From: Mycoplasma suis str. Illinois
GTDB taxonomy: Bacteria > Bacillota_I > Bacilli_A > Mycoplasmatales > Mycoplasmoidaceae
Length of the DNA stretch: 64,000 nt
Direction of reading: 5' to 3'
Assembly (NCBI RefSeq): GCF_000179035.2
Contig: NC_015155.1
Coordinates: 310,001-374,000 of the forward strand
The notes beneath the pieces were generated by a model. That model saw only the letters and a list, made by a program, of their open reading frames with translations. It had not been told where the DNA came from and did no database searches. Of this stretch, positions 30,301 through 60,154 are shown in pieces. The position numbers were made by a program, and so were the translations under genes. Each line of letters begins with the position of its first letter. Within the stretch, counting starts at the first letter, position 1.

Positions 30301-30659
30301 ATGATTGATTGAATCTAAATCTAAAGAGATATAGAGAAGAAAAGAAGAAGATAGATATAGTTGAAGTTAAAGAAGGACTTCTATCTCTAGAGAGAGAGAT
30401 AGAAGTCCTAAAGAAAACTTCAGGTAATTACAAAGAGGCTTGTGAATTAGAAAGATCTAAGAGAGAAATATTGTGTGCTGAAATGAAGAAAGAATTAGAA
30501 GATATTCAACAATATCTTGAACAAGAATCTAAGGAACTGGAAGAGATATTTATTCAATCTCAAGATATGTTGAATCTAAGCTTTGAAGAAATAGATAAGA
30601 AGCTAGCAGAAAGAAGAAAGAATATTTTAGAACTTAAAATGGAAAAGAAACCTTTTTAA
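27336..30659 (+). CDS. Large coiled-coil protein (1107 residues)
   Basis: One uninterrupted frame under code 4, with UGA-Trp codons scattered through it. Long heptad-rich stretches dominate, for example around residues 345-450 (LDEKINQLQAKNDELTSYL), 480-650 and 790-850, ending in another coiled coil near 990-1105. There is no signal peptide and no recognised enzymatic domain. Proteins of this type build cytoskeletal or terminal-organelle structures in other mycoplasmas; a structural role is the best guess. It is immediately upstream of rpmB (6 nt), so it shares a transcript with ribosomal genes. Confidence 0.7.
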
Positions 30660-46943: not shown

Positions 46944-47330
46944 ATGATTCTTACTGGAATTGCAAAAAAGATCTTTACTTCTTTGTTCCTTGGAACTTCA
47001 CTAGGGGCAGGTCCTTACGGAATAGCAATGTCTTCATCAGCAATTAATGGAAGAGATCTTACTCCTGTAGATAGCAAAGATCCAGGTTTTGGAGAACTTT
47101 GTCTTCTAGATGAAGCTGTTTGTGAAGCTATTGCTGATAAAGAGTGAAAAGAAGATGAAGAAGCTTTGAAACAAGAGGAAATAAATAAAAATAAAGAGTA
47201 TGAATCTGATTACTGAAAAGCTAGAAAAGATGACTACTGTGGATGAGGTTTTCAATGAGAAACATTAAATACATTCTTAGCTTGTGATGCTGAAGATGCT
47301 ACACAACTTAAAAATCAACAATCTAAGTAG
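46944..47330 (+). CDS. Secreted hypothetical protein inserted in S10 operon
   Basis: A 128-residue protein with a clear signal peptide (basic start, then [24 protein letters not shown]), followed by a short acidic domain with five cysteines ([27 protein letters not shown]). No family recognised. It sits between rplW (13 nt) and rplB (2 nt) in the same orientation, where no gene is normally found, so it would be co-expressed with ribosomal proteins. Two or more UGA-Trp codons. ATG 46944. Confidence 0.65.
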
Positions 47331-56773: not shown

Positions 56774-56838
56774 TTTTTTTTTAATTAACTTTTTTCCCTC
56801 AGCAGAAAACTAAAAAAGAAATAGAAAAAGAACTTTTT

Positions 56839-56878
56839 AGATAAGAGAAAGCTCCGTAAGGGAGATTTTCTCTTATCT
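56839..56878 (+). terminator. 12-bp hairpin after adk
   Basis: AGATAAGAGAAA and TTTCTCTTATCT form perfect arms, extended by GCTCC/GGAGA toward the loop. It lies 65 bp after adk and 22 bp before the next gene, so it may terminate the spc transcript or act as a leader hairpin for the IF-1-like gene. Confidence 0.6.
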
Positions 56879-56900
56879 ATTTAGTATTTCCTTTTAAAGA

Positions 56901-57170
56901 ATGCCTGAATATTTAGTGGGAATAGTTAGAGAAGTTGTTCACAAGAAATTTGTAATTGTTGAGTGTGAAATTGCAAATCCCTCTACTTTCTATTGCATTC
57001 TTTCTTGAAAAATAAGACTCAAAAAAATTGTGTCTTATTTTTTGTCTAGAAAATTTCCAGAAAAAATAAAACCCTTTTCTCTGGAATCCAAAGAAGTCAT
57101 TTTTAAGTTAAAAAATTGTGAAAACTTTTCACTTCAGGATTCTGGAATTATTGTTGAAATAAGAAATTAA
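56901..57170 (+). CDS. IF-1-like OB-fold protein A (cassette 1)
   Basis: An 89-residue protein related by pattern to IF-1: GIVREVVHKKFVIVECE, then FYCILSWKIRLKK and the C-terminal SGIIVEIRN align with IF-1 strands (VVKMVTAENVKVEL, DCHLAKKLKK, KIIERI). It is paralogous to the protein at 58795 (shared C-x-L-S-W-K-x-R motif and G-I-V-V-E end). It lies two genes upstream of the true infA. Probably binds RNA or the 30S subunit; this is inferred from the OB-like pattern. ATG 56901. One UGA-Trp in the L-S-W-K motif. Confidence 0.65.
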
Positions 57171-57182
57171 CTTTTAGTTTTT

Positions 57183-57608
57183 TTGCTAGCAGTAGCTATT
57201 GTTGTGAGTACTCTTGCAGCAGCTTTCTTAATTTGAATTATTATTGAAGTTTCAATAACAAGAACAACTCCTTTTATTTGAAATTTTTTTGTAAAAAAAG
57301 TAGATCATAGGTGAGTTCAGTGACGCAAAGGTTTTATTATTTTCTCTCAGTGTCCCTACTTCACTAAATATCTTGTTTTAGTTGGGGACACTGATATGAA
57401 TGGAACAAACCATTATTTAAAAAGAAGTTGTCAATTATCTTTCTGATTAGGTATCAGAAATAAGATAAAACCTATTAAGTTATTTGAGGGAGATGTAGTT
57501 CTAGTTTTGTGCAGTAATCCAATATTTGATGAATGAAAAATATTTAGAATAGTTAAGTTAAATTCTGCTCAGTTTGAGCAGAAAAACTATTCAAATATTC
57601 AAAATTAA
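57183..57608 (+). CDS. Membrane-anchored OB-like protein B (cassette 1)
   Basis: A 141-residue protein: one N-terminal membrane helix (VAIVVSTLAAAFLIWIII) then a cytosolic domain beginning KKVDHRWVQWRKGFII. It is paralogous to the protein at 59151 (shared DHRW-x-x-WRKG, SC-x-LS, and V-x-VLVL segments). The end GDVVLVLCSN resembles the last strands of an IF-1-type OB fold. TTG 57183 is the first start after the in-frame stop. Function unknown. Tightly linked to gene A upstream and map downstream. Confidence 0.6.
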
Positions 57609-57617
57609 TTAATAGAA

Positions 57618-58496
57618 ATGATTTTTAACTTAAATAGACCAGAAACTGTGAAGCCAAAGGCTGAACATGAAATTCAAATAATGAGAATAGGTGGTCTCAT
57701 TTGACAATCTATTAGAGACCACCTAATTAGGGAAGTTAAAACCGGAATGACTTTAAGTCAAGTTGAAAAATTAGTAGAAGTTCAATTTAAAAAATATGGA
57801 CTTTTTCCATCTTTTAAGGAAACTGGAAAGTTTCCATATTTAATTTGTACTTCTCTAAATAGTTGTGTAGTTCATGGAGCTCCTTCTGAAGAAGTAATAA
57901 AGGAAGGAGATAAGTTAACTATTGATTTAGGGTTTAAGTACAGGGACTACAATATAGATTCAGCTTTCTCCCTATTTTTTGAACCTGCGGGAGAAAGTGA
58001 AAAATCTAAAGAATTAACTGCAAAAATAAGAGATTACAAATATCTTGATCAATTAACTAAAGCAGCTTTTTATGAGTCTATTAGTGAATTAAAAGCTGGT
58101 TGCACTACTGGACATATTGCAGAAAAAATAGAGTCTTTCGTGAAGACCTATTTTCCTAAAAAGTATTCAATACTTTATGGCTTTACAGGACATGGAATTG
58201 GAAAGACGTTGCATGACTTTCCAAGAATACCAAATTATGGTTTAAAGAAAGAACAAGGTCATATTCTTTCTGCAGGCTCTACTATATGTATAGAGCCTAT
58301 GATAATAGAACAGGAAGATGGTAAGTGAGAAATAGATAAAGATGGTTTTAGTGTTTGTGCAAAAAATAAGAATGCACAAACAATGCATTATGAGCACTTA
58401 GTGTTAATACTCGAAGATGGAGTTGAAGTATTAACAGCTAGTCAGTGAGAAATGGAAGAATTAAGATCTTCCTGAGAGATAATAAAGGGAGTTTAG
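57618..58496 (+). CDS. map: Methionine aminopeptidase
   Basis: Removes N-terminal Met; type I, 292 residues. Metal ligands are in place: Asp in TIDLGFKYRDYNIDSAF (both), His in FTGHGIGKTLHD, Glu in CIEPMI, Glu in HYEHLVLI. An insertion with KELTAKIRDYKYL lies between the second Asp and the His region. ATG 57618. Its usual place between adk and infA is kept. UGA-Trp in the C-terminal part. Confidence 0.95.
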
Positions 58497-58499
58497 TAT

Positions 58500-58727
58500 A
58501 TGTCTAAAGATAGTTCAAAGTTTTCTTTAGAGGGAAAAGTAGTTAAGATGGTGACAGCTGAAAATGTTAAGGTGGAACTTTCAAATAAAAAAGTAATGGA
58601 TTGTCACTTAGCTAAAAAGCTCAAGAAGTATAGTTCATACATTCTTGAGGGAGATCCAGTTATTGTGGAAATTGATCCTTATGATCTCTCAAAGGGAAAG
58701 ATAATAGAAAGAATAAAAGTTAGATAG
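58500..58727 (+). CDS. infA: Translation initiation factor IF-1
   Basis: A 75-residue IF-1: FSLEGKVVKMVTAENVKVELSN, DCHLAKKLKKYSSYILEGDPVIVEIDPYDLSKGKIIERIK, the family EGDPV-x-VE-x-xPYDL-x-x-G-x-I core. Occupies the A-site of 30S during initiation and works with IF-3. ATG 58500 lies 3 nt after map. Followed by a CCCTCT/AGAGGG hairpin, then the second IF-1-like cassette. Confidence 0.96.
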   Translation: MSKDSSKFSLEGKVVKMVTAENVKVELSNKKVMDCHLAKKLKKYSSYILEGDPVIVEIDPYDLSKGKIIERIKVR

Positions 58728-58737
58728 AGGATTTTTT

Positions 58738-58753
58738 CCCTCTAAAAAGAGGG
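58738..58753 (+). terminator. Hairpin after infA
   Basis: CCCTCT-AAAA-AGAGGG, 10 bp after the infA stop; a T-run precedes it and an AT-rich stretch follows. Possible partial terminator between infA and the second cassette. Confidence 0.5.
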
Positions 58754-58794
58754 ATATACTTTCTTTAAACTAAGTTTTTTATTCTTTTATAAAA

Positions 58795-59127
58795 ATGACT
58801 AATACAGGAGATAAGGAATTAAGTTTCTATGAGAAACTTAAGTCTAAGTGAAGTCTAGCTGATTACCTAGAAGGTGAAATAAAAGAAGAAATTATTGGAA
58901 GTAAATACATATCAATTGAATGTAAAAACATTCATCCATTTGTATTTCAATGTGTTCTTTCCTGAAAACTTAGAAGACAATTTAGAAAAATTTCTAGAAA
59001 GGAAGAGGGAAATTCCTTTCTAGAAATAGGTAAAAAAGTGAAATTTAAGTGCAAGTTAAATTCAGAAAATGTTCTTAAGGGAAGAGCTTTAAATGGAGTT
59101 GGTATTGTAGTAGAACTTCTAGACTAA
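58795..59127 (+). CDS. IF-1-like OB-fold protein A-prime (cassette 2)
   Basis: A 110-residue paralogue of the protein at 56901: GEIKEEIIGSKYISIECK, FQCVLSWKLRRQFRK, GKKVKFKCKL and NGVGIVVELLD align with it and with IF-1 strands. An N-terminal extension of about 25 residues is added. ATG 58795 lies downstream of the infA hairpin. A hairpin (AACTTCTAG/CTAGAAGTT) follows its end. Role unknown; ribosome or RNA binding is inferred from the fold pattern. Confidence 0.65.
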
Positions 59128-59150
59128 ATAGACTAGAAGTTAACTAAAAA

Positions 59151-59531
59151 ATGGAGCCAATAGCATGGATTATTACAGTATCTCTGCTATCCATCGCTTT
59201 TCTAGCTACAATAGCAGAGATAAAGAGATCTAAAACACTTCCTTCTACTTGATATCTTTTGTGTCAAAAGATAGATCATAGATGGATTCTGTGGAGAAAG
59301 GGAATAGTCCTTTCTTCAGAAGGAGAAGATAATAAAAAATACTCTGTTAATTTAGGATACTATGACGGAAATCGAGAACTCTATTATCTTCCTCATAGTT
59401 GCAAGCTATCGCTGCGACTCAGATTAAAGAGTTTACTTAGTGACTTTAGTCTAGAACCCGGAGTCCAAGTTCTAGTATTAATGTGTAATAAGAACATAAA
59501 GAAGATAATAAAAATAGTTAAATTTAAATAG
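59151..59531 (+). CDS. Membrane-anchored OB-like protein B-prime (cassette 2)
   Basis: A 126-residue paralogue of the protein at 57183: an N-terminal membrane helix (WIITVSLLSIAFLATI), then CQKIDHRWILWRKGIVL, SCKLSLRLRLK and GVQVLVLMCNKNIKK. The same two-gene order (A then B) is seen on both sides of map-infA. ATG 59151. It ends 16 nt before rpmJ, so it is embedded in the alpha operon. Function unknown. Confidence 0.6.
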
Positions 59532-59665: not shown

Positions 59666-60154
59666 ATGGCAAGAATATTAGGTGTAATTCTTCCAGATAA
59701 GAAAGAGCTATTTGTAGCTCTTACAAAAATATATGGAATTGGATTAACTACTTCCAAGAAGATTATTCAGTACTGGGTACTGAATAAGGTAATTTCTGAA
59801 AATAAATTGACTGAAGCAGAGAAGTCAAAACTAGAAGTCTATATGAAAAAAAGAGTCTATAGTTTGTCCTCCGAGGAGTTAGCTTCTCTATCTCAAGCCA
59901 TAGTTAAACTTCAGTCAATTCAAGAGGAAGTGCCTGAAGTGTCTAGTTTCTTCAAGGATAGATTACTTCTGGAAGGGGATTTAAGAAAGAAAATTAGTGA
60001 TGATTTGACTAACTTAAAGGAGATTGCTTCTTATGTTGGATTGAGACATAGAAGAAATTTACCAGTACATGGACAAAGAACAAGAACTAACGCTAGAACA
60101 AGAAAAGGTCCTAGAAAAACTGTTGCAAATAAGAAGATTGAAGGTAAGAAATAG
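59666..60154 (+). CDS. rpsM: 30S ribosomal protein S13 with internal insertion
   Basis: S13 normally has about 120 residues; here 162. N-terminal RILGVILPDKKELFVALTKIYGIG and C-terminal YVGLRHRRNLPVHGQRTRTNARTRKGPRK are conserved. About 40 extra residues in the middle (around 45-105) enlarge the helical region. ATG 59666. It contacts the P-site tRNA and 23S bridge. Confidence 0.95.
   Translation: MARILGVILPDKKELFVALTKIYGIGLTTSKKIIQYWVLNKVISENKLTEAEKSKLEVYMKKRVYSLSSEELASLSQAIVKLQSIQEEVPEVSSFFKDRLLLEGDLRKKISDDLTNLKEIASYVGLRHRRNLPVHGQRTRTNARTRKGPRKTVANKKIEGKK

Follow-up and report, generated by a model that had tools for sequence, protein, structure and literature searches.

Introduction

Mycoplasma suis is a blood parasite of pigs with 361 CDS that group into 68 paralogous families; of these families, 40 are exclusive to this species (PMC4423628). 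The published rule for a paralogous family in M. suis is 30% identity over 70% of the length (PMC3091866), and sites under positive selection have been found in 12 of 14 such families tested (PMC3958358). The species-exclusive hypothetical families include large clustered arrays, and the gene families reported here resemble them in being exclusive to M. suis and in having no known function (PMC3091866, PMC4423628, PMC3958358). They differ in forming linked two-member families that flank map and infA within the ribosomal operon. The second described system close to them is translation initiation factor IF-1 (infA; PF01176, TIGR00008), because one of our families is likewise small and basic and carries a C-x-L-S-x-K-h-R core that aligns, at marginal significance, with [IVL]-S-G-K-M-R of IF-1.

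Here we describe a locus in a 64,000-nucleotide stretch of the M. suis Illinois genome (the window). A first-pass annotation had read it as an IF-1-like cassette of two genes, one soluble and one membrane-anchored, duplicated around map and infA. We compared the locus with its counterparts in related hemoplasmas and with models of IF-1.

Results

We translated the M. suis Illinois genes with TGA as Trp (table 4). The resulting gene order was adk-A-B-map-infA-A'-B'-rpmJ with A through B' all on the + strand, so that the open reading frames and order given in the first-pass annotation were borne out. Gene A (56901–57170) encodes 89 amino acids, and gene B (57183–57608) encodes 141 amino acids from a TTG start that lies in A's reading frame, just past A's stop. 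The host operon genes follow: map (57618–58496), a type I methionyl aminopeptidase (TIGR00500 above cut-off, E 2e-53), and infA (58500–58727), the true IF-1 (PF01176 above cut-off, E 7e-14; 60.0 bits against TIGR00008, slightly below its cut-off of 61.15). The second cassette consists of A' (58795–59127; 110 amino acids) and B' (59151–59531; 126 amino acids). The IF-1 proteins of the suis group (infA here; L007 and L009–L012) are unusually diverged. M. parvum alone passes the TIGR00008 cut-off and others score 47–59 bits, whereas the rest of the family mostly scores higher, at about 75–112 bits.

The spacer between adk and A (56774–56900) contains a long stem-loop with a 12-bp outer stem at about 56838–56880. 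Its predicted RNA fold has an energy of −31.1 kcal/mol (z −2.9 against shuffles), and the spacer has no equivalent at the matching junction of M. parvum. A smaller stem-loop (58737–58754) lies in the spacer between infA and A' (58728–58794). The stem-loops before A and A' could modulate read-through. Rfam gave only sub-threshold matches in the locus, and no promoter-like site was seen on the + strand of the cassette region.

Proteins A and A' are predicted to be soluble, and all four cassette proteins are basic (net charge +5 to +10). Each B protein contains one strong hydrophobic segment, with 19-residue Kyte-Doolittle maxima of 2.74 at residues 3–21 of B and 2.33 at residues 4–22 of B', in agreement with the single N-terminal membrane helix proposed earlier. 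The charges beside this helix weakly favor a cytoplasmic location of the C-terminal part. Scans of the four proteins against Pfam, NCBIfam and PHROGs gave no informative match; one PHROG, of unknown function, matched B' over 18 residues only (E 0.005) and was set aside. The best matches among PDB sequence profiles were triosephosphate isomerase and an uncharacterised protein, both at chance level. Taken together, this anatomy suggests at most a pair of proteins linked to the membrane, with nucleic acid or protein as their binding partner.

M. suis and its sister species M. parvum were collinear between rpoC (32.3 kb) and the end of the window, and from 43 kb onward A, B, A' and B' were the sole predicted genes lacking an M. 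parvum counterpart. The first-pass annotation was thus right about the duplicated soluble-plus-membrane cassette, which is more striking than it had claimed. In M. parvum there is an overlap of adk with map, and rpmJ directly follows infA. The four other suis-group genomes read had adk and map abutting or overlapping and an infA–rpmJ gap within about 10 nt. All five of these congeners therefore have both junctions closed (about 0–10 nt), and the cassettes look inserted in the M. suis lineage; the simplest reading would be two insertions, or one insertion followed by duplication. Elsewhere among the ribosomal protein genes, just before L2, the window contains a small, fast-evolving hypothetical gene (46944–47330), whose M. 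parvum counterpart is only 52% identical.

Single-sequence and profile searches detected no copies beyond these two in the M. suis genome (742,431 bases) and no relatives of A or B in its congeners. A profile of B searched against 395 genomes of the class gave a best other match of E 0.0015 per genome, about chance at that number. Neither A nor B had a relative in pattern-based scans of some 85,000 species genomes, and relatives of B were likewise absent from the viral contigs scanned. One congener (G003) yielded neither map, infA nor rpsM, and thus provides no evidence either way on the absence of A and B; its ribosomal region seems to be missing from the sequence searched. L2 was also not found there, with an approximate query of which only the first ~70 residues were M. 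suis sequence. Families A and B are thus exclusive to M. suis among the hemoplasmas compared, G003 with its apparently missing ribosomal region aside.

The closest parallel in position came from the haemofelis group. There the gap between adk and map holds small genes for lineage-specific one-helix proteins (L057, 2320–2880; L058, 2450–2760; L059, 2670–3010), in one case (L057, genome G010) as two tandem copies. These genes resemble B in having one helix and in their location, but they lie on the opposite strand, have low-complexity tails, show no sequence relationship to A or B, and are not accompanied by a second insertion after infA. Because these private genes are unrelated to the cassettes, the adk–map junction seems to have acquired such genes repeatedly.

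The two cassettes were clearly related to one another. BLASTP aligned A with A' at 36/95 identical residues (38%, E 8e-12) and B with B' at 47/120 (39%, E 4e-23); the alignment scores were 118 and 191, compared with shuffle maxima of 51 and 47, respectively. These E values rule out dissimilarity of the two cassettes, the result that the first-pass annotation had named as fatal to its proposal. The A and A' alignment spans 95 columns of 110 and that of B and B' 120 columns, so that both pairs satisfy the published rule for paralogous families. A and A' share the motifs C-[IV]-L-S-W-K-[IL]-R and G-I-[IV]-V-E, as had been claimed. For B and B', the shared DHRW-x-x-WRKG stood, whereas V-x-VLVL is exact in B' only (VQVLVL; DVVLVL in B) and sits well ahead of the C-terminus instead of forming the ending of the proteins. 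The A and B families did not align to each other.

Between copies, codon position 2 was best conserved (0.72 for A/A', 0.64 for B/B'), as expected of selected proteins, and position-3 identity was 0.49 and 0.43, respectively. Nucleotide similarity was largely gone between A and A' (p 0.15) and mostly lost between B and B', yet significant over about 90 nt in the latter pair. We concluded that A/A' and B/B' are true paralogue pairs and that all four genes are under constraint as proteins. It is accordingly highly improbable that the four genes are open frames without meaning or pseudogenes in decay. Such a reading would suit the failure to find homologues outside M. suis, or proteomic evidence for the four proteins in the literature searched, but meaningless frames should not be four in number, full-length and co-oriented, with conservation between copies at the protein level and highest at codon position 2.

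We then consider IF-1. Three HMMs of IF-1 were used, built from the suis group, from hemoplasmas, and from a broad set of 39 sequences. With each of them, IF-1 itself came top among the 81 predicted proteins of the window, followed by A and then A'. Shuffled sequences scored as high or higher in 0–1 of 2000 trials for A and in 1–5 of 2000 for A'. Proteins B and B' scored like their shuffles, with no significant match. The alignments of A and A' took in the initial strands together with the C-x-L-S-x-K-h-R core, mainly in the N-terminal half, where [IV]-L-S-W-K-[IL]-R aligns with [IVL]-S-G-K-M-R of IF-1 at marginal significance. The G-I-x-V-E end, which the first-pass annotation had also aligned with IF-1, fell outside these profile alignments. 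The C-terminal IF-1 motif GDxVxVExxPYDLxxGRI is absent from A and A', and B has merely EGDVVLVL. A and A' further differ from IF-1 in having extra residues after the core and in falling under every curated cut-off: at E values up to 1, Pfam and NCBIfam left both A proteins without a family and matched neither B protein to an IF-1 family. Whole-genome searches with IF-1 models, in which the first pass acts as a filter, did not list A or A'.

In profile-profile comparison with the broad IF-1 profile, the score of the A family fell to near the 99th percentile of shuffled controls. An hhalign probability of 48–56% for A against the hemoplasma IF-1 profile was not taken as proof, since the broad profile gave only 4%; in addition, with such two-sequence profiles a chance-looking match of B to ribosomal protein L5 scored higher. 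Overall, the similarity of A and A' to IF-1 is marginal and that of B and B' is absent, and on sequence grounds we do not count A and A' as members of the IF-1 family. That the A family descends from IF-1 is possible, though we consider it a good deal less likely than not.

Predicted structures did not sharpen this picture. AlphaFold models computed from two-sequence alignments had mean pLDDT values of 54.9 (A') and 50.1 (B'). When compared with solved structures, these low-confidence models gave top rows that were mutually unrelated (Z ≤ 6.4 for A', Z ≤ 2.7 for B'); IF-1 was not among the matches listed, which excludes nothing. The first-pass annotation had proposed that all four proteins are OB-fold paralogues of IF-1, one soluble and one membrane-anchored in each cassette, with a possible role in tuning initiation or in holding ribosomes at the membrane. 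A weak hint of this survives in A and A', in the HMM ranks and shuffles and in the core shared with IF-1, and the strand-helix-strand order of the low-confidence B' model could fit an OB topology. Against the proposal, B and B', which unlike IF-1 carry a membrane helix, score at shuffle level against IF-1; further, the A and B families do not align mutually, curated IF-1 models leave all four proteins unmatched, and the models are too poor and their structure matches too disparate to support it. We therefore regard the four-paralogue proposal as very unlikely.

A narrower derivation is somewhat better placed, although still doubtful: A and A' alone would derive from a duplicated infA and would have lost the IF-1 function, with B as an unrelated partner of independent origin. 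The ranks and shuffles of A and A' in the IF-1 HMMs, the hhalign result with the hemoplasma profile, and the location of A' directly 3' of infA are all consistent with this. Against it, the signal drops with the broad IF-1 profile, the alignment is confined to the N-terminal half, A has no nucleotide similarity to infA, and A does not appear among the matches listed by the genome-wide searches with IF-1 models. Moreover, infA is 87% identical between M. suis and M. parvum, so that descent after the species split would need extreme acceleration. Less likely again is a version in which A and A' are neofunctionalised IF-1 paralogues that, with the co-inherited membrane proteins B and B', would make up a membrane-linked translation (or RNA-binding) accessory that M. 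suis alone possesses and that was duplicated inside the operon of the initiation factor. In the literature searched, the coverage of which was incomplete, we found no IF-1 paralogue described as partnered by a membrane-anchored protein.

Separately, we observed many short hairpins in M. suis coding sequences. The window contains 63 perfect inverted repeats (stem at least 10 bp, loop 3–12) versus 1.5 expected from dinucleotide shuffles. In predicted CDS of M. suis there were 108 with stems of at least 9 bp (7.9 in synonymous-codon shuffles) and 53 with stems of at least 10 bp (2.1 in shuffles), an excess of roughly 14 to 25 times. The excess was weaker in M. parvum (13 versus 4.0 and 5 versus 1.2, respectively), and the short segments analysed from other hemoplasmas were near background. 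The M. suis hairpins have many different sequences (for example 930–955, 30374–30409, 58990–59027 and 59763–59787). Amino acid identity to M. parvum was 0.81 inside them and 0.80 outside, and for only 7 of 35 did M. parvum have a hairpin in the corresponding position. A survey reports that inverted repeats are generally represented normally in protein-coding regions and discusses template switching as a source (PMC4060949), and coding palindromes are described from nematomorph mitochondria (PMC6649704). The pattern looks as if template switching were an ongoing source of perfect hairpins in M. suis CDS. Genes A and A' each have such a hairpin (at 57008–57042 and 58990–59027, respectively) shortly 3' of the L-S-W-K core, in the stretch where their length differs from that of IF-1, and hairpin formation may have remodelled this stretch.

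Discussion

The best account of our results is that A and B are two more hypothetical paralogue families exclusive to M. suis, of a type that abounds in hemoplasma genomes, placed inside the ribosomal operon. That is, a two-gene cassette probably entered an operon of M. suis and now exists as two diverged copies. The cassette comprises A, a small, basic, soluble protein, and B, which is predicted to cross the membrane once and has a basic domain following the helix. It would have been inserted into secY-adk-map-infA-rpmJ in an ancestor of M. suis, and is now represented by the two strongly diverged copies flanking map and infA. Because gene order and strand are the same on both sides, we suggest that a block, for example map-infA-A-B, was duplicated in tandem and that one map-infA was then lost. 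Counting against block duplication, we found no relic of map or infA upstream of A. Counting against a recent insertion and duplication, position-3 identity between the copies is below that of M. suis–M. parvum orthologues (mean 0.59), which implies that the copies diverged before the species split or evolve fast. Fast evolution is allowed by the positive selection reported for M. suis paralogous families.

The cassettes are probably read from the ribosomal operon, given their shared strand and the lack of a visible + strand promoter-like site in the region, and their products would then be made in step with ribosomes. The pairing of A with B in both copies suggests that the two proteins work together. 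B may hold its basic domain at the membrane, probably on the cytoplasmic side, and A may bind either this domain or nucleic acid. Protein A could be an old, degenerate derivative of IF-1; lacking the conserved C-terminal part, it is not expected to act as IF-1.

If the A family did arise from IF-1, then an essential and normally single-copy factor would have been duplicated and given a membrane-protein partner in a reduced genome, which would be unusual. M. parvum is regarded as non-pathogenic (PMC4423628), and the cassettes are the sole difference in gene content between it and M. suis over a long ribosomal block. Even as ordinary private families, A and B indicate that a highly conserved bacterial operon can take in gene pairs private to one species where the relatives have closed junctions.
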